In this document: positions 5,852-57,112 of the stretch, in pieces
How positions within the stretch are numbered: position 1 is the stretch's first letter
Layout: every line of letters begins with the position of its first letter
Virus record (IMG/VR): IMGVR_UViG_3300036781_000826
Coordinates: 1-59,978 of that record
Source: a virus
Direction: 5' to 3' (one strand)
DNA: 59,978 bases
Notes under the pieces: generated by a model
Databases searched by the model: none
Told to the model about the DNA's origin: nothing
Seen by the model: the letters and a program-made list of their open reading frames with translations, nothing else
Position numbers and translations under genes: made by a program

Positions 5852-6171
5852 TTTGCGCTCCAGTCAGGGCAAATCGCGTCGAGCTGCGTGATCTGGTAGC
5901 CGTGGAAATCCGAGCCGAGGTCGCAGGCCCAGCGGCGCGCCTGGTCTTTCGGCCAGGGCGTCGAGGTGCGGTTGGAGCAGTTCGCGCACGAGGCACCAGT
6001 GGCGCGCAGTTCGTCGATCTTGACCTTCGCCACCGCTCGATGTCGGAGGCCGGCGCGCATCTTGCCGCCGCGCTTGCCGGTGATGGTGAGGGCGCGCGCC
6101 CATTCGGAGGGAAATAGCTGTGCGGCGAGGGCGCGTTGCGCCTCAAGCTCGGCGGTCGTTGGCTCGGTCAT
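5848..6171 (-). CDS. Small four-Cys phage protein
   Basis: A 107-residue protein starting at ATG 6171, overlapping the DUF5131 stop (ATGA). The N-terminal third is a basic helix-rich segment (LTITGKRGGKMRAGLRHRAVAK). The C-terminal third has GASCANCSNR, then WACDLGSDFHGY and AICPDWSAK: four Cys that probably form one zinc site. Function unknown. Confidence 0.7.
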   Translation of the reverse strand: MTEPTTAELEAQRALAAQLFPSEWARALTITGKRGGKMRAGLRHRAVAKVKIDELRATGASCANCSNRTSTPWPKDQARRWACDLGSDFHGYQITQLDAICPDWSAK

Positions 6172-18451: not shown

Positions 18452-18744
18452 AGGCCGACTATTCCGTGAGCGTCCCGATGGCCAGCGCGCGCACTGCTCG
18501 CGCCGGGCTGATGGAGGCGCGGGCCAAGGTCGCCTTCTGGGACGTGCCGGTCGAGATGGCGCTCGCGTGCTCGTCGTCGGCGTTCAAGTCGGTGATCTGG
18601 GCGCGCTACGGCCAGGGCGAACATCCCGCGCCGAACGCGCGGGTGATCGTCAGCGGCAGCCGCTTCTTCGCGACGATCTCCTTTCCCGGTCATCACGACA
18701 TGCACCTGCCGCTCGACTGCTGGACGATGGAGAATGGGCGGTGA
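18448..18744 (+). CDS. Hypothetical phage protein
   Basis: A 98-residue protein starting MKADYSVSVPMASARTARAG in an ATGA overlap. It contains EMALACSSSAFKSVIWARYG and a beta-rich end (RVIVSGSRFFATISFPGH). Its stop overlaps the GTG of the helicase/methylase gene. Function unknown; possibly a partner of it. Confidence 0.65.
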   Translation: MKADYSVSVPMASARTARAGLMEARAKVAFWDVPVEMALACSSSAFKSVIWARYGQGEHPAPNARVIVSGSRFFATISFPGHHDMHLPLDCWTMENGR

Positions 18745-21257: not shown

Positions 21258-23836
21258 ACCTCGCGCTGCACCCTAACCACCCCGATGCCCAGGTAGAGCA
21301 CCTGCCGGCAAATATTGATGCCGAGCAGGCGCTGCTGGGCGCGCTGCTCTACGACAACGCGGCCTACGAGCGTATCGGCGACCACCTGCGGCCGACCCAC
21401 TTCTACGATCCGTTCCACCAGCGCCTGTTCGCAGCAATCGAGACCGACCTGCGGAAGGGCCAACTCGCCGAGCCAATCCTCATCAGCGAGCGCTTCCATG
21501 CCGACGAAGGCTTCGAGCAACTCGGGGGCGTGCGCTACCTCGCCGACCTGGTCGATCGCGCCCCGCCGGCCGCCAATGCAGCGCAATATGCCCGCGCGGT
21601 GTACGACCTGGCCATTCGGCGGGATCTGATCAGGCTCTCCGGCGAGATCGCACTCCGTGCCCGCGCCGGCGGCGATGACGAGCTCGACGGACGCGCCCAG
21701 GTCGAAGCCGCGGAGGCTGACCTCTTCCGCATGGTGCAGACCGAAGGCGCCGGCCAGGGCTTCCAGACCTTCGAGCATTACCTCACCGGCGCCGTGCAGA
21801 TGGCTGCGGAGGCCTATAGCCGCGACGGCGGCCTTTCCGGGCTCTCCACCGGCCTGCTCGACCTCGATCAGAAGCTCGGGGGCTTGCACGCCTCGGACCT
21901 GATCATCATCGCCGCCAGGCCCTCCATGGGGAAAGCCCAGCCGCTCGACGCTGGCGTCTTGCTCGCCGATGGCCGGTTCATGGCGATGGGCAGCCTGCGC
22001 ATGGGCGACCAACTGGCGTCCGTGGATGGGGAACCTTCGACCGTCACAGGCGTGCACCCCCAGGGCGAGAAGGAAATCTTCCGGGTCACGCTCTCCGATG
22101 GCCGCTCGGCGGAAGCCTGCGCCGATCACCTGTGGCGCGTCTGCTACCGCGGCTGGCCGGAGCCCCGCATCCTGAAGACGTCCGAGATCGCCGACATGCT
22201 GGAGCGCTCGCGGTATCGCGACCGGCTCTGGATCGACAGCCACAGCGGGGACTTCGGTGACCGCGCAGGCTTGCGTCTGGACCCCTACGTGCTTGGCGCA
22301 CTGATCGGAGACGGCAAGCTCAGCGATAGGACTCCGGTCATCACCTCGATCGATCCCGAAGTGATCACCGAGATGAACCGCAGGCTGGCACCCGACATGG
22401 AGGCCGGCCGAGCCTGGAACGACATCACCTTCCGCGTCCGTACCATCGGCGGCGGCAACCGCGTCGGCGTGCAGGGAATGGTCCCCAACCGGGTCACGGC
22501 GGCACTTGAGGCCATGGGCCTGCACGGCTGCCGCAGCGAGGACAAGTTCATCCCGCCCGAATACCTGAGCGCCTGCCGCGCCGCACGCCTGGCGCTTCTG
22601 CGCGGGCTTCTCGACACTGACGGCTGGGTTGAGACCTTCGGCGCCGTGCGGTTCTGCACGACGAGCCCTCGCCTCGCGCGAGATGTCGTTGACCTCGTCC
22701 GGTCGCTCGGCGGCCGGGCCGGTGTCGGCAAGAGGGCACCGTTCTACCGAAAGGACGGCGAGTGCCGCGAAGGGCTGCCAGCGTTCACCCTGAACATCCA
22801 AGGTCTCGCCGGCGATGACCTCTTCATGATCCGTCGCAAGGCCATCCGCGTCGCGCCCCCGAAGCGGGTCAAGCGCCTCACGATCGCCGCGGTGACCTAC
22901 GGCCGCAAGGCCCAGGCTCAGTGCATCACTGTCAGCCACCCGAGCCGCCTCTACATCACCGACGACTACGTCGTGACCCACAACTCCGCGCTGGCCTGCA
23001 ACATCGCCTTCGACGTCGCCAAGCACTACGTCTGGGAACCCCAGCCAGACGGATCGAGGAAGACGGTACGGGGTGGGGTGGTGGCCTTCTTCAGCCTGGA
23101 GATGGGCGGCGAGCAGTTGGCGATGCGCCTGCTGGCCGAGGTCTCCGGCGTGTCGAGCGATCGCCTCCGCAAAGGCGACATCAATCCCCAAGAATTCGGC
23201 CGGATCCGCGACGCGGCAACGGAGATCCAGAACGCGCCGCTGCACATCGACGCCACCGGCGGACTGGCGCTCTCCAAGCTGTGCACCCGGGCCCGCCGGC
23301 TGAAGCGAACGGTTGGCCTCGACCTTGTCGTGGTGGACTACCTGCAGCTCATCGACAGCGGCATCGGCGGCAGGGACAACCGGGTCCAGCAAGTCAGCCT
23401 CATCACCTCCACGCTCAAAGCGCTCGCCAAGGAGTTGGCGATCCCGGTGATTGCGCTGGCCCAGCTCTCCCGCAACGTCGAAAGCCGCGACGACAAGAAG
23501 CCCCAGCTCTCCGACCTGCGGGAATCCGGCTCCATCGAGCAGGATGCCGACGTGGTGATGTTCATCTACCGCGAGGCCTACTACCTGAGCCGCACCGAAC
23601 CGCGCGAGGGCACCGACGAGCACCTGAAGTGGCGCGAGGAGATGGACCAAGTCAGCGGGCTCGCCGACATCATCATCGGCAAGCAGCGGCACGGCCCGAT
23701 CGGGAACATCAAGGTCTCGTACAACGAGGACCTGACGAAGTTCGGCAACCTGGTGCGCGACGCCGGGCGCTACGAGGCGCACCGGCAACGCCTCGACTTC
23801 GACCAGCCTCGATATGCGCCGGGGGTGGAAGACTGA
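21254..23836 (+). CDS. dnaB: Replicative DNA helicase DnaB containing an intein
   Basis: An 860-residue precursor. The N-terminal domain (NIDAEQALLGALLYDNAAYE) and RecA-like core (GLSTGLLDLDQKLGGLHASD, LIIIAARPSMGK, VVAFFSLEM, LDLVVVDYLQLI, IALAQLSR, DLRESGSIEQDADV) define DnaB. The Walker A loop is split after GK by residues 228-577; on removal the mature 510-residue helicase reads PSMGK-SALACN. Until splicing occurs the ATPase site is broken, so splicing gates helicase activity. The helicase would unwind phage DNA at the fork. Confidence 0.96.
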   Translation: MNLALHPNHPDAQVEHLPANIDAEQALLGALLYDNAAYERIGDHLRPTHFYDPFHQRLFAAIETDLRKGQLAEPILISERFHADEGFEQLGGVRYLADLVDRAPPAANAAQYARAVYDLAIRRDLIRLSGEIALRARAGGDDELDGRAQVEAAEADLFRMVQTEGAGQGFQTFEHYLTGAVQMAAEAYSRDGGLSGLSTGLLDLDQKLGGLHASDLIIIAARPSMGKAQPLDAGVLLADGRFMAMGSLRMGDQLASVDGEPSTVTGVHPQGEKEIFRVTLSDGRSAEACADHLWRVCYRGWPEPRILKTSEIADMLERSRYRDRLWIDSHSGDFGDRAGLRLDPYVLGALIGDGKLSDRTPVITSIDPEVITEMNRRLAPDMEAGRAWNDITFRVRTIGGGNRVGVQGMVPNRVTAALEAMGLHGCRSEDKFIPPEYLSACRAARLALLRGLLDTDGWVETFGAVRFCTTSPRLARDVVDLVRSLGGRAGVGKRAPFYRKDGECREGLPAFTLNIQGLAGDDLFMIRRKAIRVAPPKRVKRLTIAAVTYGRKAQAQCITVSHPSRLYITDDYVVTHNSALACNIAFDVAKHYVWEPQPDGSRKTVRGGVVAFFSLEMGGEQLAMRLLAEVSGVSSDRLRKGDINPQEFGRIRDAATEIQNAPLHIDATGGLALSKLCTRARRLKRTVGLDLVVVDYLQLIDSGIGGRDNRVQQVSLITSTLKALAKELAIPVIALAQLSRNVESRDDKKPQLSDLRESGSIEQDADVVMFIYREAYYLSRTEPREGTDEHLKWREEMDQVSGLADIIIGKQRHGPIGNIKVSYNEDLTKFGNLVRDAGRYEAHRQRLDFDQPRYAPGVED
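21935..22984 (+). other. DnaB intein, class 3 type, with LAGLIDADG endonuclease
   Basis: 350 residues (228-577 of the precursor) starting Ala-Gln-Pro-Leu-Asp and ending VVTHN before Ser+1. Residue 1 is Ala, so it lacks the usual Cys/Ser nucleophile. It shows the class 3 triplet: Trp in block B (ACADHLWRV), Cys in block F (AQCITVSHPSRLYI) and Thr before the terminal HN. LAGLIDADG motifs are LGALIGDGKL and LLRGLLDTDGWV, so the homing endonuclease looks intact. Confidence 0.93.
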
Positions 23837-41435: not shown

Positions 41436-44400
41436 ATGACGATTGACGTCGCCAGCCTGGTCTTCGAGTTCGATTCCACGCAGGCCAAGCAGGCGGCGGC
41501 GGACCTGGACATGGTCACGGCGGCCGGCGACCGCCTCGATGCGTCGGCCCGCCGTGTCCAGACCGCCACGCAGCTTGCCGGCATCGGCATGCAGAGCGCC
41601 AACGGCGCGTCGACGACCGCGACGAAGAACGCCACAGACCTGGCGAACGCGCAGGGCGCGGTCGGAAAGGCGACGCGAGCCTCCACGGCAGCGTCCGCCG
41701 CCGCCGCCGCCCAGCGCGCCCTCGACGCCGCCGCCATGCGGGAGTTGGTCCTTGCCTCGAAGCAGTACGAGGCGTCCCTGGCCGCTCAAGCCCGTGAAGA
41801 GGCCGCCGCCGCCGCGTCCAAAGCGCGCCTCGCCACGCAGGTCGACAACATCCTCGGCCGCATGGACCCCCTGACGAAAATCCAGAACACGGCGGCGGCC
41901 AGCACGGCGAAACTCGACCAGGCGCTCGCCGCCGGCGTGATCACGGCTGAACAGCACGCCAGCGCGACTGCGAAAGTCGCCACCGCGGCTGAGGCTGGCG
42001 TGGCCGGTCTCACGCACCTTGGGTCTGGCGCGAAGGTATCAGGCGCCGCGATGCAAGAACTGACCGGTATCGTCAGGCACTCCATCGACGCGCTCGCGGC
42101 CGGCGCGAACCCGGCGATCGTGCTCGCTCAGCACACCGCGAGCCTCGCGCAGGTGTTTGGCGGCGGGCAGGGCGGTCTAGGAGCTGTGCTCAAGGCCGTA
42201 ACCAGCCCGCTCGGGCTCATGATCACAGGTATCGTTGCAGTTGGCGCTGCCATCGTGGGCACGATCAGCCTGGTGGGCAGCTACAACAGCCACATCAAGG
42301 AGTTGTCCGACCTGAGCGCAGGCGTTGGCGCTGCGGCGGGGGCGAATGCCGACCAGATCTCAGCGGCGGCCGACCGCATCTCGAAGGACACCGGAAAGTC
42401 GTTCGGCAGCGCCGAGCAATCGGTCCTGACCCTCGTCCAGACCGGAAAGATCGGTGCCGGCGCCTTCGTCGCCTTTGGCGACAGCGTCGACAAATATGCC
42501 GACGAAACGGGCCTCAAGGCTGTCGACGCCAACAAGGAACTTGCGGCGGCCTTGGCCGACCCCGCCAAGGGCCTTGCGACAGTCAACGACCGGCTGAACT
42601 TCCTCAACGCGACCCAGGTCGACAACATCCTGAACCTGCAGAAGCAGGGCGACCTCTCGAAGGCCGATGACGCGATCCTGGCTGCGCTCTCCATCCGCCT
42701 GGACGATGTGACCCATCGTACCGGCCTCTGGTCGTCGGCCATGGGCGGCGTCGCGAACGCGTTCCATGCGGTCCACAGCGCGGTCGGCCAGTTCTTCTCG
42801 TCGGACCCAGTGAAGACCGCTCAGGATTACTCCGGCTTTGGCGCCAATCCGGTGATCGACGCCCAAGCCGCGCAGGCCGCCGCGAACCAGCGGAAGGCCG
42901 CCGGCATTCAGACAATCCAGCAGGCGTCCGGCCTGGTCGACAAGGACGATCTCGACGGCACCCAGAAGCTTACCGCGCTCCAGAGCAACCTGACGCTCGT
43001 CACCAAGGCTCTCGCGGACGCCCAACTCTACGACAAGGATGCGGTTTCCGGCCTGGCGACCGAGCAGAATGCGCTTCAGCACGCCGTCACCACCTACGTC
43101 CCGGCGGCCCAGAAGGCGCACGATGTCTCGGTCGCGCAACTGGCGGTTACGAACGCCCATACGCCGGCTCAAAAGGCCGCTGCTGCGGCCAGTTTGGTGC
43201 GCGCCCAAGCCGAGGGCGACGTGGTGACTGCCACGCAATTGGGCGTGAAGGCCTCCGATGCCGCGACCGAGGCGTCGGCCAAGCAGGTGGTTAAGGGCGA
43301 GAGCCACGCGCAGACCTTGGCGCGAGAGGCGGCGGCGACGACCGCGACGACAGCAGCAAACCTCAATCTCGCTCAGGCCTATGGCGTGTCTTCCGCGGCC
43401 GCTTTCCAGGCCCAGGCTCGCGCCGAGGCGGTCGGAAAGGCGACCAAGGACAAGGGCGACATAGACGCCTTCGTCCAGCGCCAAGCCGACCTGAACGCAT
43501 CGAAGTCCGCAGTCGACGGCGCCAAGAGCGCGGCCGCCCTCGACCAGCAGACGGCCGCCCAGAAATTCGCGACGCAGGCGGTTCTCGACGGCACGAAATC
43601 CGCCACCGAGGCCAACCAGTCGATGCAAGAAGGCCTGACCATTTCAGCGCTGACGGCCATCGCTGACCAATCCAGCGCGAAGGCCAAGGCCGTGCTGCTC
43701 GATGTGGTCCAGCGGCTCAAGGTCGCCCAGATCGAGCACAACGATGCGGTGCGAGACGGTGTTCTCGCCGCCCAGCAGGCAACCCAGAGCAACAACATTG
43801 CGATGCTTCAACTGGAGTTGTCCCTGGTCGGCGCCACGAACAAGGAGCGCGCGGTCGCCCTCGCTCAACTGGCCGAACAGCAGCGCCTTGAGCAGATCCA
43901 GAAGGGTCTATCCGCCACGCCGCAGGGCGCGGCTCAGGTGGGCGCCGCGAGCGCCGCTGCTGCCCTGGGCGTAGACGTGAAACAAGCGAACGACGCATAC
44001 AACCTGAGCCTGTCGCGCACATCTGATCTCCTTCAGGAGATCGCCACGCACACCGCTGCCGTAACTAGCGGCCTGGTCGATGGCTTCGGCAAGGCCGGGA
44101 CGGCCTTGGGCGGCCTCCTCAACGCGCAAACGGCCTACGCCGCGACGCAGGCGAAGCTCGCCCAGGATGAAGCGGCACAAATCCTCAAGGTGGGCGCGGG
44201 AACGAAAGCTGCCGCCGACACCGAGGTCGAATACGCGAAGAAGCGCCAGGACGCCGAGGTCGAGGCCAACCTGGCGTCGCTGGACAGCTTCAAATCGCTC
44301 TTCGGCACGAAGACGGCGGCCTACAAGGCCCTGAACGACATCGAGACGGCCTATCGCGTCGTCCAGCTCGCCGGCATGGCCGAGGCTGCGGTTGTGGATG

Positions 44401-46844
44401 CGGTCCACACTGCGGAATCCATCGGCAACTCCCTGGCGCGGGGCGCGGCCAGCGCTGCGGCCGGCGCCGCGAAGATGTTCGAGGAGTTGGGTCCATTCGC
44501 GTTCCCGGTCGTGGCGGCGATGGTCGGCACCCTTGTGGCGCTGGGCCTGAGCCTGAGTGGTGGTGGCGGCGCGACCGGCGCGACGGACGCCGCCGATCGC
44601 CAGAAGGCGCAAGGGACCGGCAGCGTCCTCGGTGATCCGACGGCTACCTCGCAATCGATCGCCAACGCGCTGTCGATCGCCACGGCAAATCAAAACCAAG
44701 ACCTGCAGTACTCATCGCAGATGGTGACGTCGCTGCGCAGCATCGACTCCAACATCTCGACGCTCACCGCGGCCCTGGCCCAGGAATTGGGCGTTGGCGG
44801 CGCCTTCGATACGTCGAAGCTCGACCTCGGCACATCGACCAGCGGGCCAGGCCTGTTGACCAGGATCCTGGCGCCGATCTCGAACCTGCTGCCCGGCCTG
44901 TTTGGATCGAAGACCACCAACACCCTGCAGGACCAGGGCATCACGTTCACGCCCCAGACGGTGTCGCAGATCGTCGCCGCAGGCATCCAGGCGGCCAGCT
45001 ACAACGAGGTCTCCAGCGAGACGAAATCGTCGTTCCTGGGGATCACCTACAGCGACAAGACCAAGCTCAATACAACCAACACGCCGCTGGACGCCGACGT
45101 CTCGGGCGACATCACCCGCATCATCGGATCGCTGGAAAATGGCGTCCTGGCCGCGGCGAACACGCTGGGCATCCAAGGCGCCAAGGCGACCATCGACGCG
45201 ATGACCTTGAGCCTAGGCACGGTGAGTCTGAAGGGCCTGACCGGGTCGGCGCTGACCGACGCTGTGAACGCGGTCTTCAGCAAGGCCGGCGACGACATGG
45301 CCGCGGCGATCATGCCGATGATCAGCCAGTTCCAGAAAGCGGGCGAGGGCGCTTTCGAGACGCTGACGCGGCTGGCGACCGACTACCAGGATGTCGACGT
45401 CTCTCTCGAAAGCATCGGCAAGACCTTCAACGGTGTCGGTGTCGCCTCGATCGCCGCCCGCGAGAACCTGATCACGTTGGTTGGTGGCGTCGACAACCTG
45501 ACGAGCGAGACCTCGGCGTTCGCGACCGAGTTCCTGACCAGCGCCCAGCAACTCGCGCCGGTGCAGGCCGCGGTCACCGCCGAGATGGCCTCGCTGGGCT
45601 ACTCGGCGGTCACCACCAAGACCCAGTTCGCCGCCCTTGTGCAGGGGATCGACGTCAGCACCGATGCCGGCGCCGAGCTCTATGCCGCGCTACTGGCCGT
45701 GGCGCCAGCCTTTGGCAAGGTCGCTGACGCCGCGATGGCCGCTGCCCAAGCGACTGCCGATCAGGCCGTGACCGATGCGCAGAGCGCCGTCGACGCGGCC
45801 CGCCAGACGCTCACCGACCAGTACAATGCCGAGCAGACCGCTCTCCAGGGCGCCATCGACGCGAACCAGGCGTTCGTGACCTCGCTCCAGGCCTATCGAA
45901 CCAGCCTCGACACCAGCGACGCGGCGTCGAACAGTCCGACGCAACAGCTTGCGGTGACGCGGGCGCAGTTCGAGCAGCTTGAGGCGCTCCCGGCCGGCGA
46001 CGCGACCCGGCTTGCGGGCTTGCAAGCCGCCGGCGAGGCCTTCCTGGCCGCCTCGAAGGCCGCCGCGCCCACGCAGGCCGCCTACAACAAGGACCTGGCC
46101 GAGGTGAAGCGCGCGACGGATGCCTCGGCCACTGCCGCGCAGAGCAACGTCGACCTGGCGCAATCCCAGCTCGATGCCCTGAACGCCTCGGTCACCGGCC
46201 TGATCACGCTAAACACCACGGCCACGCAAGGCGCCATCGACATCGTCGCGGCCATCGGTGGCCTGAACGCGGCCCTGAGCGCGCTCGCTGCGGCGCAGAC
46301 CACCGATGCGGCGATTGCCGCTGGCGGAGCGACGACGCCAGCCACGACCCTGGCCACGGACACCACCACGACCACGGCGACAACCACGCCCACCAACGAC
46401 AACCTCGCCTCTGCCAACACCAACACGCCGGCCCCGACCGCCACGAGCCTCCCGCTCGACCAAGCCGCCCAACTGGCGGCTCTGGCCGCCCAGCAAGCGG
46501 CCGGCTATGTCGGCGCCGGCGCGTCCAGCGACCTCCACGAGCAAAAGTTCGCGACCGGCGGCGCCTTCACCGTCGCGGGTCCTTCAGCCGGAGACCATGT
46601 CCCGGTCGACTTCATGGCCAACGGCGGCGAGCGCGTGAGCATCGACCGCGCCGATAGCACGGCAGCCCTGGCCGACCAGGTAAGGGCGCTGATCGTCGAG
46701 GTCACCGCCCTGCGCGCGGCGGCCGAGAGCACCGCGCGGACGAACGCCTCGATGGAAGCCCGCGAGGGCAAGCGCGACATCCGAGGCCTCTACGTCCGCG
46801 GCGAGCAGCCCGACGATCCGGTTTCGACCAAGGAGGCGGCTTAG
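41436..46844 (+). CDS. Tail tape measure protein
   Basis: A 1802-residue protein starting MTIDVASLVFEFDSTQAKQA at ATG 41436, ribosome site AGGAGG. The N-terminal 300 residues match the prophage tail-length domain, with a membrane helix (GLMITGIVAVGAAIVGTISL, about 260-283). A second hydrophobic segment lies near 1015-1042. Long Ala/Gln-rich helices fill the middle and the C-terminal third, and a Thr/Ala-rich linker precedes the final 110 residues. It sets tail length and may help DNA cross the inner membrane. At about 1.5 angstrom per residue the tail would be near 270 nm. Confidence 0.95.
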   Translation: MTIDVASLVFEFDSTQAKQAAADLDMVTAAGDRLDASARRVQTATQLAGIGMQSANGASTTATKNATDLANAQGAVGKATRASTAASAAAAAQRALDAAAMRELVLASKQYEASLAAQAREEAAAAASKARLATQVDNILGRMDPLTKIQNTAAASTAKLDQALAAGVITAEQHASATAKVATAAEAGVAGLTHLGSGAKVSGAAMQELTGIVRHSIDALAAGANPAIVLAQHTASLAQVFGGGQGGLGAVLKAVTSPLGLMITGIVAVGAAIVGTISLVGSYNSHIKELSDLSAGVGAAAGANADQISAAADRISKDTGKSFGSAEQSVLTLVQTGKIGAGAFVAFGDSVDKYADETGLKAVDANKELAAALADPAKGLATVNDRLNFLNATQVDNILNLQKQGDLSKADDAILAALSIRLDDVTHRTGLWSSAMGGVANAFHAVHSAVGQFFSSDPVKTAQDYSGFGANPVIDAQAAQAAANQRKAAGIQTIQQASGLVDKDDLDGTQKLTALQSNLTLVTKALADAQLYDKDAVSGLATEQNALQHAVTTYVPAAQKAHDVSVAQLAVTNAHTPAQKAAAAASLVRAQAEGDVVTATQLGVKASDAATEASAKQVVKGESHAQTLAREAAATTATTAANLNLAQAYGVSSAAAFQAQARAEAVGKATKDKGDIDAFVQRQADLNASKSAVDGAKSAAALDQQTAAQKFATQAVLDGTKSATEANQSMQEGLTISALTAIADQSSAKAKAVLLDVVQRLKVAQIEHNDAVRDGVLAAQQATQSNNIAMLQLELSLVGATNKERAVALAQLAEQQRLEQIQKGLSATPQGAAQVGAASAAAALGVDVKQANDAYNLSLSRTSDLLQEIATHTAAVTSGLVDGFGKAGTALGGLLNAQTAYAATQAKLAQDEAAQILKVGAGTKAAADTEVEYAKKRQDAEVEANLASLDSFKSLFGTKTAAYKALNDIETAYRVVQLAGMAEAAVVDAVHTAESIGNSLARGAASAAAGAAKMFEELGPFAFPVVAAMVGTLVALGLSLSGGGGATGATDAADRQKAQGTGSVLGDPTATSQSIANALSIATANQNQDLQYSSQMVTSLRSIDSNISTLTAALAQELGVGGAFDTSKLDLGTSTSGPGLLTRILAPISNLLPGLFGSKTTNTLQDQGITFTPQTVSQIVAAGIQAASYNEVSSETKSSFLGITYSDKTKLNTTNTPLDADVSGDITRIIGSLENGVLAAANTLGIQGAKATIDAMTLSLGTVSLKGLTGSALTDAVNAVFSKAGDDMAAAIMPMISQFQKAGEGAFETLTRLATDYQDVDVSLESIGKTFNGVGVASIAARENLITLVGGVDNLTSETSAFATEFLTSAQQLAPVQAAVTAEMASLGYSAVTTKTQFAALVQGIDVSTDAGAELYAALLAVAPAFGKVADAAMAAAQATADQAVTDAQSAVDAARQTLTDQYNAEQTALQGAIDANQAFVTSLQAYRTSLDTSDAASNSPTQQLAVTRAQFEQLEALPAGDATRLAGLQAAGEAFLAASKAAAPTQAAYNKDLAEVKRATDASATAAQSNVDLAQSQLDALNASVTGLITLNTTATQGAIDIVAAIGGLNAALSALAAAQTTDAAIAAGGATTPATTLATDTTTTTATTTPTNDNLASANTNTPAPTATSLPLDQAAQLAALAAQQAAGYVGAGASSDLHEQKFATGGAFTVAGPSAGDHVPVDFMANGGERVSIDRADSTAALADQVRALIVEVTALRAAAESTARTNASMEAREGKRDIRGLYVRGEQPDDPVSTKEAA

Positions 46845-47923
46845 TGGATGTAATTCCGCCGAATTCCGATGGCCTGACTACCATCACCGAGGCCATGCTG
46901 ACGGTGACGACCGTCCCTGAGACCGCGCCGGCTGCCTACAGCTCCGGAACGACCTACGCCCTGGGCGCCCAGGCCAGCGACCTCTCCGCCAACCTGATCC
47001 TGGTCTATGTCAGCCTGCAGGCCGCCAACACGGGCAACACGCCGGCCACCTCGCCGCTCTGGTGGCGCCTGATCGGCCGCACCTACCCGGTCTACAGCTC
47101 CGGCCACACCTACGCCCTGGGCGATCGGGCTATCGATGCGGTCAACCACCTCGAATATTCGAGCCTGACCGCCAGCAACACCGGCAACCCGCTCACCGAC
47201 GACACCCATTGGGTCCAGAACGGTCCTACGAACCGCTGGGCGTCGCTGGACCTCAACCGCAGCACCGGGACGACCTCGCCGTCGCCGATGACCTACGCCA
47301 TCGCGCCAGGCAAGCGGGTGGACTCGGTCGGCCTCGCCGGCATGGTGGCGGACAGCTACACGATCTCGATCACCAAGGACGGCGCCCCGATCACGACCGA
47401 CGTCTATCCGTACACCGAGAACCTGAGCACTCGGGTTGTGCTCGGCTGGCGGGATTGGCTTACCAAGCCGTTCACATTTCGCGCGGCTTCGGCGCGGTTC
47501 GACCTGCCGCTGATCTCCGGCGCGGTGATCACCATCACGCTCACGCGGGCGTCGGGCGACGTGACCCTGGGCGCCTTGTTCGTCAACCGCGGCGTCGATC
47601 TTGGCGACACCGAAACTGACCCGCAGGACGACGCCGAGAACTTCTCCACCTTCGACCGCGACATCGAGGGCACGGCGACGGACTTCATCCCGCGCCGCCT
47701 GCTGCCGCTGGTCACCCTGGGGAGCTTGGCCGACGCCGAGCGGACGCCGGAGATCCGCGACACCCGCGACGCTCTCCGGGCCACGCCGGCCTTCTGGTGC
47801 GGCATCCGCGACGTCACCGACCCCTATTTCGAAAGCATGGTCACCGTGGGTGTCTGGAAGAGCTTCAAGATCACCCCCGGCTATGGCGGCGCGCGCTGCG
47901 ACATCACCCTCGAGGAGGCCTAA
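46844..47923 (+). CDS. Tail-tip protein with CBM-like repeats
   Basis: A 359-residue protein starting at GTG 46844. Two repeats, YSSGTTYALGAQASDL...SPLWWRL and YSSGHTYALGDRAIDA...DTHWVQ, resemble the short chitin-binding (CBM5/12-type) modules found in phage tail proteins. The rest is beta-rich (SYTISITKDGAPITTDVYPY, FDLPLISGAVITITLTRASG). Its place after the tape measure fits a distal tail protein with glycan-binding modules. Confidence 0.75.
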   Translation: MDVIPPNSDGLTTITEAMLTVTTVPETAPAAYSSGTTYALGAQASDLSANLILVYVSLQAANTGNTPATSPLWWRLIGRTYPVYSSGHTYALGDRAIDAVNHLEYSSLTASNTGNPLTDDTHWVQNGPTNRWASLDLNRSTGTTSPSPMTYAIAPGKRVDSVGLAGMVADSYTISITKDGAPITTDVYPYTENLSTRVVLGWRDWLTKPFTFRAASARFDLPLISGAVITITLTRASGDVTLGALFVNRGVDLGDTETDPQDDAENFSTFDRDIEGTATDFIPRRLLPLVTLGSLADAERTPEIRDTRDALRATPAFWCGIRDVTDPYFESMVTVGVWKSFKITPGYGGARCDITLEEA

Positions 47924-47926
47924 CAG

Positions 47927-48811
47927 ATGCCCACGCCTCCTACCCCGATCACGCCGCTTCCCACGCCGATCCCGATCACCTCCGACCCGGCCGACTTCGA
48001 TGCTCGCGCCGATGCGACTTGGACCGCTCTGCCGGACACCATCACCGGCATTGGTGATGCCGCCGAGGTGACCTACGCGAACGCTGTCGAGGCCGCTGCG
48101 TCAGCTTCCGCCGCTGCCTCCTCGGAGATCGTCGCGGCCGCCGCTATCGCCTCCACGAACTACGCCGCTTCGAGCGCGTCCAGCCTATCGCTCACTGCTG
48201 GGGCGAAGACCATCGTCCTCGACCAAGCCGGCAAGAGCTTCGCGGCCGGCGACATCGCCGCCGCCATCCGCCGGAGCAACCCGAACCAGCGGATGTTCAT
48301 GACGATCACCGCCTGGGATTCCAACCGCACGATGACGGCCAGCGTCGCGTCGGACAACATCCTGGGAAGCGGCGGCCCCTTCACCGACTGGATCATCGTG
48401 CTGGCCATCTGGGCGACGCCTGGGGCTGTGGCGGCCGACGTCTGGGCGGGCGACTCGACCTATCTGGCGGTCACGACGGCGGCGCTCACCTCCTCGGCCG
48501 CCTTCGGCACGCTCACCGACGCCTCGACAGTCGCCTGGGATATCGCCACCCAAGGCTTCAACGCGCGCGTCACCATCACCGCCAATCGGCTGATCGGCGC
48601 CCCGACCGGTTTGCAGGACGGGCTCACCTATTCCCTGGTCGTCGTGGAGAACGGCGCCGGCGGCTGGACGCCGACCTGGGCGTCTATCTGGGATTTCGGC
48701 GCGGTGGGCGCGCCCGCCTTCAACACTGGGGCCGGCAAGGCCAATCGGGTGTGGGCGCAGTACGACGCCACCAGCGCCAAGCTGATTGTCAGCGCCTGGA
48801 AGCCGGCATGA
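47927..48811 (+). CDS. Tail fibre protein
   Basis: A 294-residue protein. It has a Pro/Thr-rich start (MPTPPTPITPLPTPIPITSD), a segment of Ala/Ser helices (NAVEAAASASAAASSEIVAA) typical of phage fibre shafts, and a beta domain (KTIVLDQAGKSFAAGDIAAA, RMFMTITAWDSNRTM, DGLTYSLVVVENGAGGWTPT). Trimeric fibre structure is inferred. Confidence 0.75.
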   Translation: MPTPPTPITPLPTPIPITSDPADFDARADATWTALPDTITGIGDAAEVTYANAVEAAASASAAASSEIVAAAAIASTNYAASSASSLSLTAGAKTIVLDQAGKSFAAGDIAAAIRRSNPNQRMFMTITAWDSNRTMTASVASDNILGSGGPFTDWIIVLAIWATPGAVAADVWAGDSTYLAVTTAALTSSAAFGTLTDASTVAWDIATQGFNARVTITANRLIGAPTGLQDGLTYSLVVVENGAGGWTPTWASIWDFGAVGAPAFNTGAGKANRVWAQYDATSAKLIVSAWKPA

Positions 48812-49563
48812 CCTTTCCCTTCGCCTCGATGCTGGTGGCGCCGCGCGCCCTGTTAATCGAATGGTTTATGATCGGCTCAGGCGGCGGCGGCGGCGGCGTG
48901 GTTGGCGGATCGACGGGCGCGGCCGGCGGCGGCGGGGCTGGTGAGCCCAAGTCCGGCACAGCGGCGCTGCCGACAGGCTCGGTCATCCATTGGGATCCGG
49001 GCTTGGTCGGCTCATCCACGCCAGACGGGACCCCCATACCAGGAACCGCCGCGACCTTTGGGTCGCTCGCCGCCTGCGCCAGCGGTGGCTACGGAGGGGC
49101 CCCGACAGACGACGGCGGCCCAGGCGGCGCCGCGGCGGGCGGCGGCGGCGGTGACGGCGGCGGTGGCTTCGGAGCAGGCGCTGGTGGAACTGGCGCGCAC
49201 GTTGGCGGGGCCGGAGGCTTGGGGAGCGCCGGTGCGGGCGGTGGCGCGGGCGCGGACGCGTCTGGCTCGACGCCTGGTGCGGGCGTCGTCTCATCCATCA
49301 ACGGCACGCCAACTGAATATGGGCGTGGCGGGGGTCCGACCGGCGCGGCCGGCATTCCATCCACGCCCGGCGGCGGCGGCCAGGGCGCGAACATCTCGGG
49401 CGTGCCATCTGGCGATATCAATACTGGCTTCGACGGCTTTCCTGCGCGACTGGTCGTTCGCTACGTCGGTCCGCAGAGCGCGACTGGCGGCACGATCACC
49501 ACGGACGGAACCCACACCATCCACACCTTCGGCGCCACGGCTGACGATTTCACGGTGAACTGA
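48808..49563 (+). CDS. Polyglycine-rich tail adhesin
   Basis: A 251-residue protein coupled by ATGA. About 150 residues are Gly-rich (for example GGGGGGVVGGSTGAAGGGGA), with motifs repeated in a way that recalls the packed polyglycine II helices of phage S16 gp38. The C-terminus GGTITTDGTHTIHTFGATAD is a conserved beta cap. It is a probable receptor-binding protein. Confidence 0.75.
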   Translation: MTFPFASMLVAPRALLIEWFMIGSGGGGGGVVGGSTGAAGGGGAGEPKSGTAALPTGSVIHWDPGLVGSSTPDGTPIPGTAATFGSLAACASGGYGGAPTDDGGPGGAAAGGGGGDGGGGFGAGAGGTGAHVGGAGGLGSAGAGGGAGADASGSTPGAGVVSSINGTPTEYGRGGGPTGAAGIPSTPGGGGQGANISGVPSGDINTGFDGFPARLVVRYVGPQSATGGTITTDGTHTIHTFGATADDFTVN

Positions 49564-50539: not shown

Positions 50540-51226
50540 ATGCACATGCGCTTGATGAAGATCGGCCTTTTGGCCGCGATGGTGTTCGCCTGGTCGTCGG
50601 CGGCGATCGCCAGCGACGACAGCGTCACCGCGAAGAACGCCTCGCTCACGTCGGTGACCTTCTGTTCGAAGGATATCGGCTCCGGCGTAATGGCCTCCTG
50701 CCAGGTGCCTGTTGACCCTGCCACCGGCGCCAAGATCAGCCCCATGCCCAAGAAGGGCGGCCAGGTTGGCGGCCTGAGCTTCTTCGTGGCCAACACGCCC
50801 ACGATTCAGGCCGCAGCCTACGCGGCGGGCAACTGCATGGGCGGCTTCCAGGCCATCACCGTGACAGGCACGGCCGGCGCGACCGGCACGCTGCACTCGT
50901 TCCAGATCCAGTCCAAGGCCGGCCTGGCGACGGCGAAGCAGATCTACGTCTTCACCTCGAACCCGTCGTCGTCGACCTGCACCGACAAGGGCACATTCAC
51001 GATCGCCTCGGCGGATCGGGCGAAGCTGCTCTCCACCTTCTCGGTTACGCCGGCGATTCCGTCCGGCGACACCGGGTCATATGGCGAAGCGACCGGCATG
51101 GGGCGTGCTTTCGCCACCTCCGGCAACGGAAACCTCTACATCGCGGTAGTCGAGACGGCAGCGGAAACGCCGGCCTCCACGTCGGACCTGATTGTTTCGA
51201 TCGGAGGCTACATTGATCAGCCGTAA
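50540..51226 (+). CDS. Signal-peptide protein in the fibre module
   Basis: A 228-residue protein with a Sec signal (MRLMKIGLLAAMVFAWSSAA, cleavage after AIA near residue 24) and a beta-rich mature part with Cys (VTFCSKDIGSGVMASCQVPV, GNCMGGFQAITV, SSTCTDKGTF). A phage structural gene does not normally need export, so this may be a periplasmic or surface protein made during infection. The start is ATG 50540 or 50546, ribosome site AAGGA. Confidence 0.75.
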   Translation: MHMRLMKIGLLAAMVFAWSSAAIASDDSVTAKNASLTSVTFCSKDIGSGVMASCQVPVDPATGAKISPMPKKGGQVGGLSFFVANTPTIQAAAYAAGNCMGGFQAITVTGTAGATGTLHSFQIQSKAGLATAKQIYVFTSNPSSSTCTDKGTFTIASADRAKLLSTFSVTPAIPSGDTGSYGEATGMGRAFATSGNGNLYIAVVETAAETPASTSDLIVSIGGYIDQP

Positions 51227-52859
51227 GCTCGTCGCCGTAGCCGCGCCGGTCGCTGTGATCTGCTGCTTCTCAAGCGCCGCGAACGCCATCCCGCCAGTCC
51301 AGACCGTGTCGGTGCTTGCCAGCCACAGGCATTTGTCGATCGCCACTTACAATCCGCTGGGCTACTTCCCCAACGTCGATGGGGCCCTCATGTCGACTGC
51401 CGCGTCCATCGGCGTCACCAATGCCCAGACCTACACCGTGAGCTGGTGGCAGTGGGGGCAGCACGTCAACCCGTCCAGCACGAACGATACCAAGTTCGCG
51501 AACACCGGCGGCTATTCCACCAACGGCGCCAATTGCGAAAGCCCTCATGACGGGTTCTGCGCCGCGTTCGACAATTCCGGTGCGTTCATGCAGAACAGCT
51601 TCCTCGACGCCTCCGGCGCGGGCCCGAATATCTCTGGGACCGGCTCTGGCGTCATGGCCAACCAAGTCTGGACCCACTACCTCTTCTCGATCAACCTCGC
51701 GACCGGCAACGCCGCCGTCTATGTGAACAACACCAATGCCCGCGCCTCGGGGCTCTTCACCGTGCCGACGATCGCGAGCGTGACGCCCGATCTGAACGCG
51801 GTCGGCGGCTTCGGGCTGCTGAACGGCCACAAGCTCACCGACCAGGGCTGGGGCTACCAGGCCGACTTCTTCCTCTCAACTGATGACACGGTCTGCAAGG
51901 GTACGTCGCCGATCACCGTCGGCGGCATCAGCTATGCCTGCGCCGCGGCGAATACCGTCCCCGCGGCCCTGCTGGCGAAGTTCATTTCTCCGGCCGGGGC
52001 GCCCGTCGATCCTGGTTCCACCTGCGCTAACCCGACCAATCGCCAGCCGGAACTGTGCTTCGCCGGAAGTGGCTCTGACTATCTGGTGAACAAGGGCTTC
52101 GCGACCAATATCTCTGGCGCGAACGCCGCCAATTGGGCCTATGTGCCCTGGAGCGCCGGGGCCTTCATCTCGCCCGCGCCGTACGGGCCACTGGGCATTC
52201 CTGCCGGGCAACCCACCATGCGCTGGCATCAGGGACGCACCGGTGCTGGCGCCGGCCTAACCACCATCACCACAGACGCCGCCAGTTCGCCCATCGTCAC
52301 CGGCGAGCTGCTGGTGATCACGCTGGTTGGCCAGGATAGCTCGGGAACCGGCAACCACTCCCTGTCGTGCCCGACTGGCGGAACGACGACCTTCACCGCC
52401 CTGGGCCCGGAGATTCCCGCCGGCCAGAACACCAATTCCATCATCTGCTATGGCGTCATCGGCGCCGGCGAGACGGGCGCCTATGCCTTCAGCTGGACCG
52501 GCGCCTTCACGAAGACGGTGGGCTGGCAGATGAGCGAATATGCCAACGTGTCCGCCGTCGACACCGCCGCCAGCGGGGCACAGATCAACGCCTCCAGCAC
52601 GACCTGTCAGAACCCGAATCTTACGACCAGCGTCGCCAACGAGACGGTGGTCAGCTGGTGCATCGACAGCAATGCCGTCACCAAGACATTCGGCCCGCCG
52701 CCGAACGGCTTCAATCAACAGCGCATCAAGTCGGTATCCGGGCCCGAGGTGATGATCAACACCATGTATAAGGTCGGCCTCGGCGGCTCGACCTCCAACC
52801 CCATCACCATGAGCGCCGCCGACGCCTCTGCGGGATACACCCTCGGCCTCAAGCCCTAA
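51213..52859 (+). CDS. Signal-peptide LamG/concanavalin-like protein, TTG start
   Basis: A 548-residue protein starting at TTG 51213, 5 bases after GGAGG, and overlapping the previous gene by 14 bases. A signal peptide (LISRKLVAVAAPVAVICCFS, cleavage after ANA) precedes a beta-sandwich domain (TYTVSWWQWGQHVNPSSTND, NQVWTHYLFSINLATGNAAV) of LamG/concanavalin type and a second immunoglobulin-like region (GELLVITLVGQDSSGTGNHS). It carries several Cys. It may bind glycans on the cell surface. Confidence 0.75.
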   Translation: MISRKLVAVAAPVAVICCFSSAANAIPPVQTVSVLASHRHLSIATYNPLGYFPNVDGALMSTAASIGVTNAQTYTVSWWQWGQHVNPSSTNDTKFANTGGYSTNGANCESPHDGFCAAFDNSGAFMQNSFLDASGAGPNISGTGSGVMANQVWTHYLFSINLATGNAAVYVNNTNARASGLFTVPTIASVTPDLNAVGGFGLLNGHKLTDQGWGYQADFFLSTDDTVCKGTSPITVGGISYACAAANTVPAALLAKFISPAGAPVDPGSTCANPTNRQPELCFAGSGSDYLVNKGFATNISGANAANWAYVPWSAGAFISPAPYGPLGIPAGQPTMRWHQGRTGAGAGLTTITTDAASSPIVTGELLVITLVGQDSSGTGNHSLSCPTGGTTTFTALGPEIPAGQNTNSIICYGVIGAGETGAYAFSWTGAFTKTVGWQMSEYANVSAVDTAASGAQINASSTTCQNPNLTTSVANETVVSWCIDSNAVTKTFGPPPNGFNQQRIKSVSGPEVMINTMYKVGLGGSTSNPITMSAADASAGYTLGLKP

Positions 52860-52914
52860 GCCGTTCGCTCGCTGGCGCGCTTTCCAGGCATCCGGCCACA
52901 AGAAGGGTCGAGCC

Positions 52915-53409
52915 ATGAACTTGACCCGCGCGCTGGCCCGCGCCCGCGAGGACGGCCTGGAAGATGAGTTCCGGGCCTTCCTGCACCGTTTTTTCGGGAT
53001 CACGGCCGCGGTGCTGGTCGTTGATATGGCGAACTTCACGCGCGACACCGAGCGCTCCGGCATCGTCCACGAGATGCTGGCGATCCACGACTTCGAGCGG
53101 GTCGCCGCGCCGATCATTGGCCAGCATGGCGGCCGACGCGTGAAGACGGACGCGGATGCGATATTCGCGCTCTTCGCGGAAGTCGCGCAGGCCGGCGCCG
53201 CTGGTCATGAAATCCTCGCCGCAACCATCGGCAGCGCTGCGGTCGGCTTCGGCGCCATCCTCGATTTCGGTGACGAGATCATGGGCTCCGAGGTGAACAA
53301 GGCGGCGAAAGCCCAGCAGCGCCACGCGCAACACGGCGTGGTCGAACTCACCGAAGCCGCGGCGAAAGCCGCCGGCCGATCCTTCCAGGCCCCCAGGAGC
53401 GCGTCATGA
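52915..53409 (+). CDS. Class III nucleotidyl cyclase-like protein
   Basis: A 164-residue single-domain protein. Residues 30-140 follow the class III adenylate/guanylate cyclase fold: VLVVDMANFTRD (metal D37), IGQHGGRRVKTDADAIFALF (K77 and metal D81), then GFGAILDFGDEIMGSEVNKA (E121, N128, and K132 in place of the usual Arg). Catalysis is plausible but the Arg-to-Lys change and altered base-selecting position make specificity uncertain. It stands between fibre genes and overlaps the spike gene by 4 bases. Confidence 0.72.
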   Translation: MNLTRALARAREDGLEDEFRAFLHRFFGITAAVLVVDMANFTRDTERSGIVHEMLAIHDFERVAAPIIGQHGGRRVKTDADAIFALFAEVAQAGAAGHEILAATIGSAAVGFGAILDFGDEIMGSEVNKAAKAQQRHAQHGVVELTEAAAKAAGRSFQAPRSAS

Positions 53410-54491
53410 CCACCACGACCGTCACGCCGGCAACCCTTGCCGCAGCGCTTGCCGCAGCGAAGCCTGGCGACACCCTGTCCCTCGGCGGCGGCGCCTATGG
53501 CGATGTCGTCTTTCGCCGGCCGGGCGTGACGCTCAGCGGGCCGAAGAATGCCGTCCTGAACTCGCTGACGATCATGTCGCCGGCCGCCAACGTAGTTGTC
53601 GAGGGCTTTACCGTCGATCTGACCCCGACCGCCGCCACGATCACGAGCACCGGCGTCGTGCGCGCTGTGAACATGAGTGGCGTGACCATCCGCGACCTGA
53701 CCATCACCGGCGGCCCGGCGGTCAAGGGCTGTGCGCAGACGGCCCTGGCCGGCGCTCAAAGCGCCTTCGGCGGCAATGTGCTTGGTCTTCCGACGGCCAC
53801 TGGCATCGTGATGGACGGCGTATCGAACTGGTCGGTGGACGGCTGCAGCATTTCCAAACTATTTGCTGGTATCACCACCTGCGGCGAAAACTTCCAGATC
53901 ACCAACAACGAGATCTTCGATCTTCGAACGAGCCCGATCCACGGCACCGTCTGGGGCGACGCCACGATCATCGGCAACTACCTCCACGATTCCACGCCCT
54001 GGAACTTCGGTGGCTCGGGCGATCATGGCGACTACATCCACCTCTGGACCGACCCGGCGAAGTCGTCCGCGCCCATCGCCAATGTCGTCATCACCGGCAA
54101 CCATATAGAGCAGGGCGCTGGCGGCCAGATGCTCGGGATCAACCTCCAGGCCACGCCGCAGGCCGCCACCGGCCTGGGCTTCGCTGCGCCAGTCATCGAT
54201 GGCAACCTGATCCTTAGCGGCCATGCCGAGGGCATCCGCACCGAGGCGGCGGCCGGCGTCGCCATCACCGACAATATCCTGCTCCAGACGTCCGGCGGCC
54301 CGAAGGATGCACCCAGCATCCTGCCGACCTACGGCTCGACGCCGATCCTTCAGCGCAACCTGGCCGTCGACCTCTATGGCTACATGGCCTCCGATCGGAG
54401 CAACATCATCATCCCGACGGGCACGGTGATCGCGCCATGGATGCTGGCGGTGGCACGCGCTCAGTTCGCCGCGAACAGCGCGGCGGCCTAA
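53406..54491 (+). CDS. Right-handed beta-helix tail spike
   Basis: A 361-residue protein. LAAAKPGDTLSLGGGAYGDV is the usual cap of pectate-lyase-like helices, followed by many short turns such as NVVVEGFTVDLTP, VTIRDLTITGGP, FQITNNEIFDLRTSPIHG and VVITGNHIEQGAG. It likely forms a receptor-binding or polysaccharide-degrading spike. No catalytic residues can be assigned safely. Confidence 0.85.
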   Translation: MTTTTVTPATLAAALAAAKPGDTLSLGGGAYGDVVFRRPGVTLSGPKNAVLNSLTIMSPAANVVVEGFTVDLTPTAATITSTGVVRAVNMSGVTIRDLTITGGPAVKGCAQTALAGAQSAFGGNVLGLPTATGIVMDGVSNWSVDGCSISKLFAGITTCGENFQITNNEIFDLRTSPIHGTVWGDATIIGNYLHDSTPWNFGGSGDHGDYIHLWTDPAKSSAPIANVVITGNHIEQGAGGQMLGINLQATPQAATGLGFAAPVIDGNLILSGHAEGIRTEAAAGVAITDNILLQTSGGPKDAPSILPTYGSTPILQRNLAVDLYGYMASDRSNIIIPTGTVIAPWMLAVARAQFAANSAAA

Positions 54492-54518: not shown

Positions 54519-54917
54519 ATGGCCGCCACCAAGCCCGCGCCTGCGTCCGACGCCGCGCCCGCGTCGCCGAAGATCGCCACGGCCGACGTGGCCAAGATGA
54601 TCGCCGACGCCGTCGCCAAGACCGCCGCGCCGCCGCCGGCCGAACAGGTAATCCCGTGGTTCATCCCGACCTGGCCCGTGGTGCTGGGGGTCGGTCTCTA
54701 CGCGATGAGCTTCTGGGTGCTCTACATCCTGGCGCCGGCCAAGCACGAAGGGCCGAGCGAGCTGTTCAAGACCTTGGCCAGCGCGGTGATCATCACCGCC
54801 TTCATCAACGGCGTGGTGGCGGCGGTCTACACGGCGGCCCGCGACAGCCAGAAGAAGAACGACACCATCGCCGCCCAGGCCCGCGCGATCGCCGCGCAAT
54901 CCCCAACCGCCCCGTAA
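54519..54917 (+). CDS. Holin candidate
   Basis: A 132-residue protein with a Pro/Ala-rich start and two membrane helices (VIPWFIPTWPVVLGVGLYAM and continuing LYILA; then TLASAVIITAFINGVVAAVY), ending in a charged tail. Position at the start of the lysis region and this layout fit a holin. Ribosome site AAAGGAG. Confidence 0.7.
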   Translation: MAATKPAPASDAAPASPKIATADVAKMIADAVAKTAAPPPAEQVIPWFIPTWPVVLGVGLYAMSFWVLYILAPAKHEGPSELFKTLASAVIITAFINGVVAAVYTAARDSQKKNDTIAAQARAIAAQSPTAP

Positions 54918-54956: not shown

Positions 54957-55427
54957 GTGGCCGACGACACCGACCGCGCGCCGCATCGCGCCCGCAGCCG
55001 CTTGCCGGGCGACGACGCCCTGCACGAAGGCCATTACCGGGAAATCCTCGCCAGGCTTGGCGGCCTCGAGGATCGGGTGAGCGAGATCCGCGAGGATTCC
55101 CGTGAAGCCCGCGACGCCACCACGAGGCTTGCCGCCGCGGCCGAGGCCCAGGACCTGCCCACGCGAATCGCCGAGGCTTTCGCGGCCGTCCGAGGTGAGG
55201 AGGTGCGCGCCCGCGCGGACCTGCAGAACACCTCGAACAAGATCACCGACGAGATGCGCCGAGGCCACGACGACCACGAGGAGCGCCTGAAGCGCCTGGA
55301 GACCTTCAAGGACAAGGTCCAGGGCGCCGGCGGCTTCCTCAGCTTCATCGCCAAGAACATGCCCTGGCTGGTGGCGATCGCCATGGCCGGCCTGGCCGGC
55401 CTGGGCTTCAAGGCGCACAATCCGTGA
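54957..55427 (+). CDS. Coiled-coil protein with C-terminal membrane helix
   Basis: A 156-residue protein starting at GTG 54957. Residues 20-125 form a long coiled coil (DRVSEIREDSREARDATTRL), followed by one C-terminal membrane helix (NMPWLVAIAMAGLAGLGF). It could be a second holin or antiholin or a tail-anchored spacer. It overlaps the endolysin gene by 4 bases. Confidence 0.65.
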   Translation: MADDTDRAPHRARSRLPGDDALHEGHYREILARLGGLEDRVSEIREDSREARDATTRLAAAAEAQDLPTRIAEAFAAVRGEEVRARADLQNTSNKITDEMRRGHDDHEERLKRLETFKDKVQGAGGFLSFIAKNMPWLVAIAMAGLAGLGFKAHNP

Positions 55428-56014
55428 CCCTGGCCAGCATCCGTTCCGCGAACCCGCTGGCGGCGTTCTGCATCACCAAGACCATCGGCCTCGAGGGCGG
55501 CCTGGTCGACAGCGCGGCCGACCCGGGCGGCCTCACCGACTACGGGATCTCGTTGCGAGCGGCGCTCGCGCAGGTCGCCCTGCACCCCGACGAGCTGGCG
55601 CTCTACGACGTAGACCACGACGGCCACCTCGACCGCCGCGACATCGCTGGCCTGACCCAGGACGAGGCGGCCGACATCTACCTGGCCGACTGGTGGACGC
55701 CGGGTTGGTACGCCCGGATGGCGCCCCAGGCGATCGCCTGGAAGTGCTTCGACATCGCGGTCAACACCGGCCCCAACCGCGCGGCGCGCATCCTCCAGCA
55801 GGCGCTGTGCGACGTGGGCGCTGCCGTCCCGGTGGATGGCGTCGTCGGGCCGGTGACGGGGCTCACCGTGCGCGGGCAGGCCAGCAAGGACCGGGGTGTC
55901 CGGCTGCTGGCCGCCATCCGGGCCGAGCAGGCCAAGTTCTACCGCGGTCTCGTAGCCGCGCAACCCAAGCTCAAGACCTTCCTGGCCGGCTGGCTCAACC
56001 GCGCCACCGCCTGA
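55424..56014 (+). CDS. Endolysin, GH108 N-acetylmuramidase
   Basis: A 196-residue lysozyme starting at GTG 55424. TIGLEGGLVDSAADPGGLTD is the GH108 motif with catalytic Glu24 (EGG). The rest shows DEAADIYLADWWTPGWYARM and a C-terminal peptidoglycan-binding-like helix (WKCFDIAVNTGPNRAARILQ, DGVVGPVTGL). No signal peptide, so release depends on the holin. Confidence 0.92.
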   Translation: MTLASIRSANPLAAFCITKTIGLEGGLVDSAADPGGLTDYGISLRAALAQVALHPDELALYDVDHDGHLDRRDIAGLTQDEAADIYLADWWTPGWYARMAPQAIAWKCFDIAVNTGPNRAARILQQALCDVGAAVPVDGVVGPVTGLTVRGQASKDRGVRLLAAIRAEQAKFYRGLVAAQPKLKTFLAGWLNRATA

Positions 56015-56773: not shown

Positions 56774-57112
56774 ATGGAACACCCACAGTTCGCCTACACC
56801 GGCGCGACTCCGCCGAAGGGCTACGTCGGGTTCGTCAACATCCAAGAGACCGAAGGCGGCGTGCGCTTCAGCATTCGAAGCGAGGGTGAGGCACCGACGC
56901 AAGCCGAGTTCACGCTTCCTCGCGACGAGGCGGTGGCCCTTCTCGGGAAGGCCTTGGTCGGCCTGGGCGGTCCGCTGAAGCACGACTATTGGATGCCTGG
57001 CGAGGCCGACTGCCCGAAGGACATCAAGGCCGGGAACGGCGAACTTCGCACGCTCCGGTGCAAGCGCTGCTGCCTCGACAATCCGCGCAGCCAAATCTGC
57101 ACGCCAGGCTGA
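56774..57112 (+). CDS. Hypothetical Cys-containing protein
   Basis: A 112-residue protein starting MEHPQFAYTGATPPKGYVGF at ATG 56774, ribosome site GGAGAG. The C-terminus has ADCPKDIKAG and LRCKRCCLDNPRSQIC, possibly a zinc site. No family recognised. Confidence 0.65.
   Translation: MEHPQFAYTGATPPKGYVGFVNIQETEGGVRFSIRSEGEAPTQAEFTLPRDEAVALLGKALVGLGGPLKHDYWMPGEADCPKDIKAGNGELRTLRCKRCCLDNPRSQICTPG

Follow-up and report, generated by a model that had tools for sequence, protein, structure and literature searches.

A compact class III nucleotidyl cyclase-like protein encoded in the tail–lysis region of a temperate-type phage genome

We describe P0001, a stand-alone protein of 164 residues that resembles a compact class III nucleotidyl cyclase, recognized from its translation, coding score, profile comparison and AF2 model, and encoded on the plus strand at 52915..53409 of an IMG/VR virus record that has no terminal repeats. 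The whole 59,978-base record was analysed and is referred to here as the window. That P0001 has the class III cyclase fold is close to certain. To the fuller reading, in which it is the product of a temperate-phage accessory gene and acts as a slow, probably homodimeric cyclase that prefers ATP to GTP, we give about an even chance. As judged from sequence, what appears to be new is the compact, phage-borne, stand-alone form itself, which we find on three phage contigs, together with its parent family, the inheritance of a lysine at position 132, the loss of a loop and of the C-terminal region common to the phage proteins, and the loss of the LGED motif in P0001.

P0001 is a real gene product with a class III fold

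Codon usage and translation signals both support 52915-53409 as a real gene. Its coding score under the window's own codon usage is 87 bits (log-odds) with a GC3 of 0.84, an AAGG Shine–Dalgarno-like sequence lies 9–12 nt 5′ of the ATG (52903..52906, plus strand), and the stop codon overlaps the start of the next gene (ATGA). As a single sequence, P0001 has no match in Pfam, PHROGs or PADLOC, and the curated Pfam threshold for PF00211 is reached neither by P0001, which gives no match, nor by the phage relative P0003 described below.

For the class assignment, 11 canonical class III domains from bacteria were combined into a profile. P0001 scores 41.0 bits against it (E 4e-11), and the highest score among 5,000 shuffled sequences is 11.0 bits; P0001 itself was left out of this profile, but the 11 domains came from searches with P0001 as the query and represent the host cyclases that match it better. 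With the single sequence as query, phmmer ranks five class III cyclase sequences first in the PDB (E 0.02–0.4), and its top hits in Rhizobium genomes can be assigned by motif to class III cyclase domains. A family profile that contained P0001 recovers class III cyclase structures from the PDB (E 4e-23).

The AF2 model of P0001 aligned with its two phage relatives has a pLDDT of 77 and a pTM of 0.71, with the strands and helices in the expected order. Class III cyclases account for all 50 of the best 50 Foldseek matches listed for this model in the PDB, the top match being Ma1120 with a bound ATP analogue (TM 0.67). Because the alignment held three sequences and two of the five models were good (the other three were poor), we take the predicted fold as support and not as proof. 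AF2 run on P0001 alone gave a meaningless model (pLDDT 48), which was discarded. An initial annotation, made from the letters of the window, had proposed a stand-alone class III cyclase-like protein at this site; its stand-alone character is supported, and the class III likeness is upheld by the score relative to shuffled sequences and by the AF2 and Foldseek results.

Active-site residues

The catalytic positions were read from a joint alignment of 22 domains, comprising 11 canonical domains, eight cellular relatives and three phage proteins. Both metal-binding aspartates, D37 (codon at 53023..53025, this and the following codons being on the plus strand) and D81 (53155..53157), are invariant in all 22, as is the ribose-contact asparagine N128 (53296..53298), and the base-contact lysine K77 (53143..53145) is kept in most. 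At the second base-contact position, 20 of the 22 domains have aspartate and one has asparagine; P0001 alone has glutamate, E121 (53275..53277), giving a K77–E121 pair in which the lysine is kept and the aspartate replaced. K132 (53308..53310) occupies the position of the transition-state arginine, which leaves the Asn–Arg transition-state pair incomplete, with N128 in place and lysine for arginine. Four of the six catalytic positions are kept in P0001 and two are changed conservatively. Among the phage proteins and cellular relatives, P0001 is also the only one with Ala82 in place of Asn82 and the only one to have lost the LGED motif.

The initial annotation quoted D37, K77, D81, E121 and K132 correctly and treated the last two as departures. 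For Lys132 this does not hold up as a peculiarity of the protein: arginine is present in 11 of 11 canonical domains, whereas lysine is found in six of the eight cellular relatives and two of the three phage proteins (Lys, Arg and Lys in P0001, P0002 and P0003, respectively). Since lysine is common at this position in the parent family, K132 would most simply be inherited from it. Glu121 is indeed peculiar to P0001 among the 22 domains, although a Lys–Glu pair has a precedent in mycobacterial DUF2652 proteins, for which it was reported without an assay (PMC4886424).

In the mammalian enzymes, Arg1029 acts in phosphoryl transfer and Asn1025 holds the ribose, while Lys1065 contacts the β- and γ-phosphates (PMC9223806). 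By spacing, an equivalent of Lys1065 is expected about 36 residues past position 132. In P0001 only 32 residues follow that position, and it is without the strands that in canonical enzymes bear this type of triphosphate contact near the C terminus. In the closest cellular relatives (the L108 type, below), these strands are present without a lysine at the Lys1065-type position. Departures in the active site need not abolish class III activity, as Ma1120 is active despite an alanine in place of the asparagine (PMC4215837).

Phage relatives share the trimmed form

P0001 alone as the query gave no match in IMG/VR, GTDB contigs or deposited phages, and relatives surfaced only after the search was widened through host genomes and family alignments. 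Contig L124 was found by scanning IMG/VR with the cellular family and contig L125 with an alignment that included phage sequences. P0002 (L124:4959-5447) can be aligned gap-free with P0001 along 118 residues (E 2e-17) and carries the full canonical set of D38, K78, D82, D122, N129 and R133; in P0003 (L125:9923-10387), the corresponding residues are D, K, D, D, N and K. All three proteins lack ~13 residues between helix 3 and strand 4 as well as the C-terminal 20–25 residues of the cellular forms. These shared deletions agree with a maximum-likelihood tree in which P0001, P0002 and P0003 are grouped with weak support (37%) and the branch of P0001 is longer than that of any phage or cellular relative. 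A sequencing frameshift as the source of the short C terminus was rejected, because the two other phages share the same end point and the stop codon runs into the start of the following gene. With the same trimmed form on two other phage contigs, the trimmed stand-alone cyclase looks like a recurring viral gene.

Its distribution is sparse in the collections searched, which may omit records near the window and in which the genome samples were small. Searches of 50,697 deposited phages found no relative, whether the query was P0001, P0002, P0003, one of two cellular relatives or a canonical domain. There was no detectable cyclase copy in 50 phage records related by terminase or capsid, so the cyclase is not core to this phage lineage. 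Neither did we recognize the compact form in 398 Caulobacterales or 385 Alphaproteobacteria genomes, where the best matches are the chromosomal forms described below.

Genome context

The window is organized like a temperate tailed phage genome. An integrase gene opens it on the minus strand (1-1179), and genes for DnaB, terminase, capsid, tape measure protein (41436-46844), tail-region proteins and endolysin are present. Its terminase shares 81% identity with a terminase from a Caulobacterales genome from groundwater, and its capsid protein 48% with that of Azospirillum phage Cd, matches that point to a host that is probably an alphaproteobacterium near Caulobacterales.

The genes around P0001 all lie on the plus strand. 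Upstream is a gene for a 548-residue protein with a signal-peptide-like N terminus and no family match (51213..52859); downstream, its start overlapping the cyclase stop codon, is one for a right-handed β-helix, tail-spike-like protein (53406..54491). We found no viral relatives of the latter or of the neighbour at 46844-47923. The β-helix gene separates the cyclase from the gene for a small, hydrophobic, holin-like protein without a family match (54519..54917), and the cassette further encodes an endolysin with GH108 and peptidoglycan-binding domains (55424..56014) and a small conserved protein (56774..57112).

An equivalent lysis cassette with a cyclase is present in a second phage, on L125, which marks the cyclase as an accessory gene. 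The order there is holin-like gene, cyclase, small gene, endolysin, nuclease gene and small protein. The endolysin is 56% identical to that of the window and the small protein 75%, and the holin-like product of L125:9521-9910 resembles that of the window in its similar position and Ala/Pro-rich N terminus. Searches for the 75%-conserved gene in 358 Caulobacterales genomes and in the deposited phages gave no match. On L124, P0002 is adjoined by a PAPS-reductase/DUF3440 gene and a ParB-like gene directly upstream of the terminase genes. P0001 was initially annotated as part of a tail module. As the gene has tail-region genes to one side and lysis genes to the other, and the L125 copy sits inside a holin/endolysin cassette, accessory gene of the tail–lysis region is the better description.

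Two features of these neighbourhoods are recorded in their own right. Consecutive proteins with signal-peptide-like N termini are encoded in the tail region of the window (50540-51226 and 51213-52859) and also on L125 (4290-9168), where a subtilase (Peptidase_S8) is among them; a tail–lysis region is an unusual place for exported proteins. On L124 (3796-6115), the cyclase-like gene sits within the pair of PAPS-reductase/DUF3440 and ParB-like genes, which we take to be an IbrA/IbrB-like pair, with overlapping starts and stops.

A rare cellular parent family

By sequence comparison, P0001 is a descendant of a rare, stand-alone, alphaproteobacterial cyclase-like family. Its closest members, from three Caulobacterales loci (L108, L109 and L110), are stand-alone proteins of ~205 residues with 45, 43 and 39% identity to P0001 and E-values down to 1e-19 (the BLAST value for L108). 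Their loci have chromosomal genes in common and nothing phage-like. L116, L117, L119, L123 and L114 are more distant members. All eight cellular relatives match PF00211, three above the threshold and five somewhat below it. A closest host-type gene was detected in only 3 of the 398 Caulobacterales genomes, and for no member of the stand-alone family did we find an enzymatic activity on record.

Like P0001, members of this family consist of a single domain without a sensor or membrane part. The likeness extends to the DMSGFS and KxEADN motifs, the base-contact Asp and the Asn (with Ala82 and Glu121 the departures in P0001), and to lysine at the arginine position in most members, at identities of no more than 45%. 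The cellular forms differ in their length of ~200 residues, in having the ~13-residue loop before strand 4 and in retaining the LGED motif and the C-terminal strands; they are also chromosomal, those of L108–L110 in one conserved neighbourhood, whereas P0001 is phage-borne. In that neighbourhood, a gene for a membrane protein whose HEFAH motif is metalloprotease-like adjoins the cyclase-like gene at all three loci, with a cupin gene alongside in L108 and L110.

Proposed activity and competing explanations

Class III cyclases are head-to-tail dimers in which one chain supplies the pair of metal aspartates and the other the contacts to base, ribose and phosphate. P0001 would probably form such a homodimer with two interface sites, each combining D37 and D81 of one subunit with K77, E121, N128 and K132 of the other. 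It would convert a nucleoside triphosphate to the 3′,5′-cyclic nucleotide, and ATP is the likelier substrate and GTP the less likely one, as position 77 has lysine in place of the glutamate of the guanylyl type. Turnover would probably be slow, given the Arg-to-Lys and Asp-to-Glu replacements and the missing C-terminal strands. Made alongside the tail and lysis proteins, the enzyme could alter host cyclic-nucleotide signalling through its product late in infection or at induction. Any benefit to the phage we infer only from the tail/lysis position and from the recurrence of the gene in distantly related contigs; among the window proteins scanned, no Pfam match to a cyclic-nucleotide receptor, phosphodiesterase or effector was found. 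The chances that P0001 is catalytic in this particular phage seem to us evenly balanced. We count in favour the full canonical set of P0002, the lysine variant P0003 and the equivalent endolysin cassette on L125, and against it the longest branch, E121, Ala82, the missing LGED motif and the absent C-terminal strands. A broader scheme, in which several phage lineages carry a purpose-trimmed cyclase that is produced along with the tail and lysis proteins and whose second messenger times lysis or induction or blocks a signalling defence, strikes us as rather unlikely.

The same departures could mean that P0001 is a pseudo-cyclase that has kept the fold and most ligand contacts and lost turnover, binding instead a nucleoside triphosphate, a cyclic nucleotide or a partner, for instance in mixed dimers with a host stand-alone cyclase. 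We consider this a real possibility, if a doubtful one: the Arg-to-Lys, Asp-to-Glu and Asn82-to-Ala changes, the lost LGED motif, the missing C-terminal strands and the long branch all fit it, but lysine at the arginine position is common in the family, and both metal aspartates, Lys77 and Asn128 are retained at 32–45% overall identity. A dead cyclase would be expected to shed its metal aspartate pair sooner. Poisoning through mixed dimers would also be partial, as one site would still have the base- and phosphate-contact residues of the host protein, and the nearest host-type gene is confined to the three Caulobacterales genomes noted above. On balance, we lean somewhat towards a slow cyclase, and the dead-fold reading follows closely. 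It is highly improbable that P0001 is a structural component or a neutral passenger, whether as a host domain taken up into the virion or as one in decay without function; the position among tail-region genes and the long branch would suit it, but the relatives' genes are placed elsewhere, in the holin–endolysin cassette of L125 and upstream of the terminases of L124, and the open frame, codon bias and ligand residues of P0001 are retained.

P0001 might also serve in defence or counter-defence, making or soaking up a cyclic nucleotide of the Pycsar or CBASS type, whether as an inhibitor or in superinfection exclusion. PycC enzymes belong to the class III cyclases (PMC11224242), Pycsar signalling is a known target of phages (PMC9117128), and the cellular cousins L116, L117 and L123 weakly match the PADLOC PycC model (E 1e-5 to 1e-7). 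Shared class III ancestry alone would yield such matches, however, and P0001 and its closest relatives L108–L110 match no PADLOC model; no PycTM or PycTIR partner was recognized among the window proteins scanned, and what phages are known to deploy against Pycsar is a nuclease and not a cyclase (PMC9117128). We regard this role as quite unlikely, and anti-CBASS or anti-Pycsar action by P0001 as a hypothesis for which we found no positive support. Flooding or quenching of host or anti-phage cyclic-nucleotide signalling, as raised in the initial annotation, likewise stays a hypothesis. Membership of P0001 in a Pycsar system was rejected, as there is no PADLOC match at E up to 1.

Comparison with known systems

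P0001 shares its fold, metal aspartate pair and base-contact lysine with the canonical class III adenylyl cyclases Ma1120, Silicibacter 3mr7, Rv1900c and CyaC, and its ribose asparagine with all of these but Ma1120, which has alanine. The canonical enzymes have arginine, aspartate and C-terminal strands, where P0001 has lysine, glutamate and no such strands. Pycsar PycC proteins are alike in the class III fold and, in clades B–E, in their single cyclase domain, but P0001 is shorter and without a PADLOC match. There is no PycTM or PycTIR gene beside it, the neighbours being the unassigned protein and the β-helix protein, followed by lysis genes. DUF2652 proteins are likewise stand-alone, with a mycobacterial Lys–Glu pair resembling K77–E121; they differ in their length of ~250 residues, and the mycobacterial members keep the arginine and lack the asparagine (PMC4886424). 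P0001 has no DUF2652 match in Pfam. In BFVD, two proteins of uncultured caudoviruses that are annotated with cyclase-type domains (A0A6J5RWB7 and A0A6J5KRX6), one of them as guanylate cyclase domain-containing, match the P0001 model structurally, but these matches are weak (E 4e-3 and 3e-2) and the proteins, at 671 and 287 residues, do not have the compact stand-alone form.

Degradation and sequestration of cyclic-nucleotide signals are known from phages. If P0001 is active, its phage would differ in tactic by producing a signal of its own through a stand-alone class III cyclase. The three phage proteins can be arranged in a natural series, from the canonical set of P0002 through lysine for arginine in P0003 to lysine plus glutamate in P0001, on which an active enzyme could be told directly from a dead fold that has been retained. 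Lacking the C-terminal strands, the trimmed class III domain would also be a useful test of the minimal cyclase.

Other features of the window

Elsewhere in the tail region, 48808-49563 encodes a very glycine-rich protein of 251 residues with no family match. The early region encodes a DUF4326 protein (2403-2681) and a DUF5131 protein (6168-7220, 276 bits). A protein of 838 residues (18741-21257) has a C-terminal N6/N4 DNA methylase preceded by ~490 N-terminal residues without an assignment. The DnaB-like helicase (21254-23836) is 860 residues long, with its N- and C-terminal DnaB parts several hundred residues apart, and the insert, which has a LAGLIDADG match at residues 445-486, is probably an intein with a homing endonuclease.
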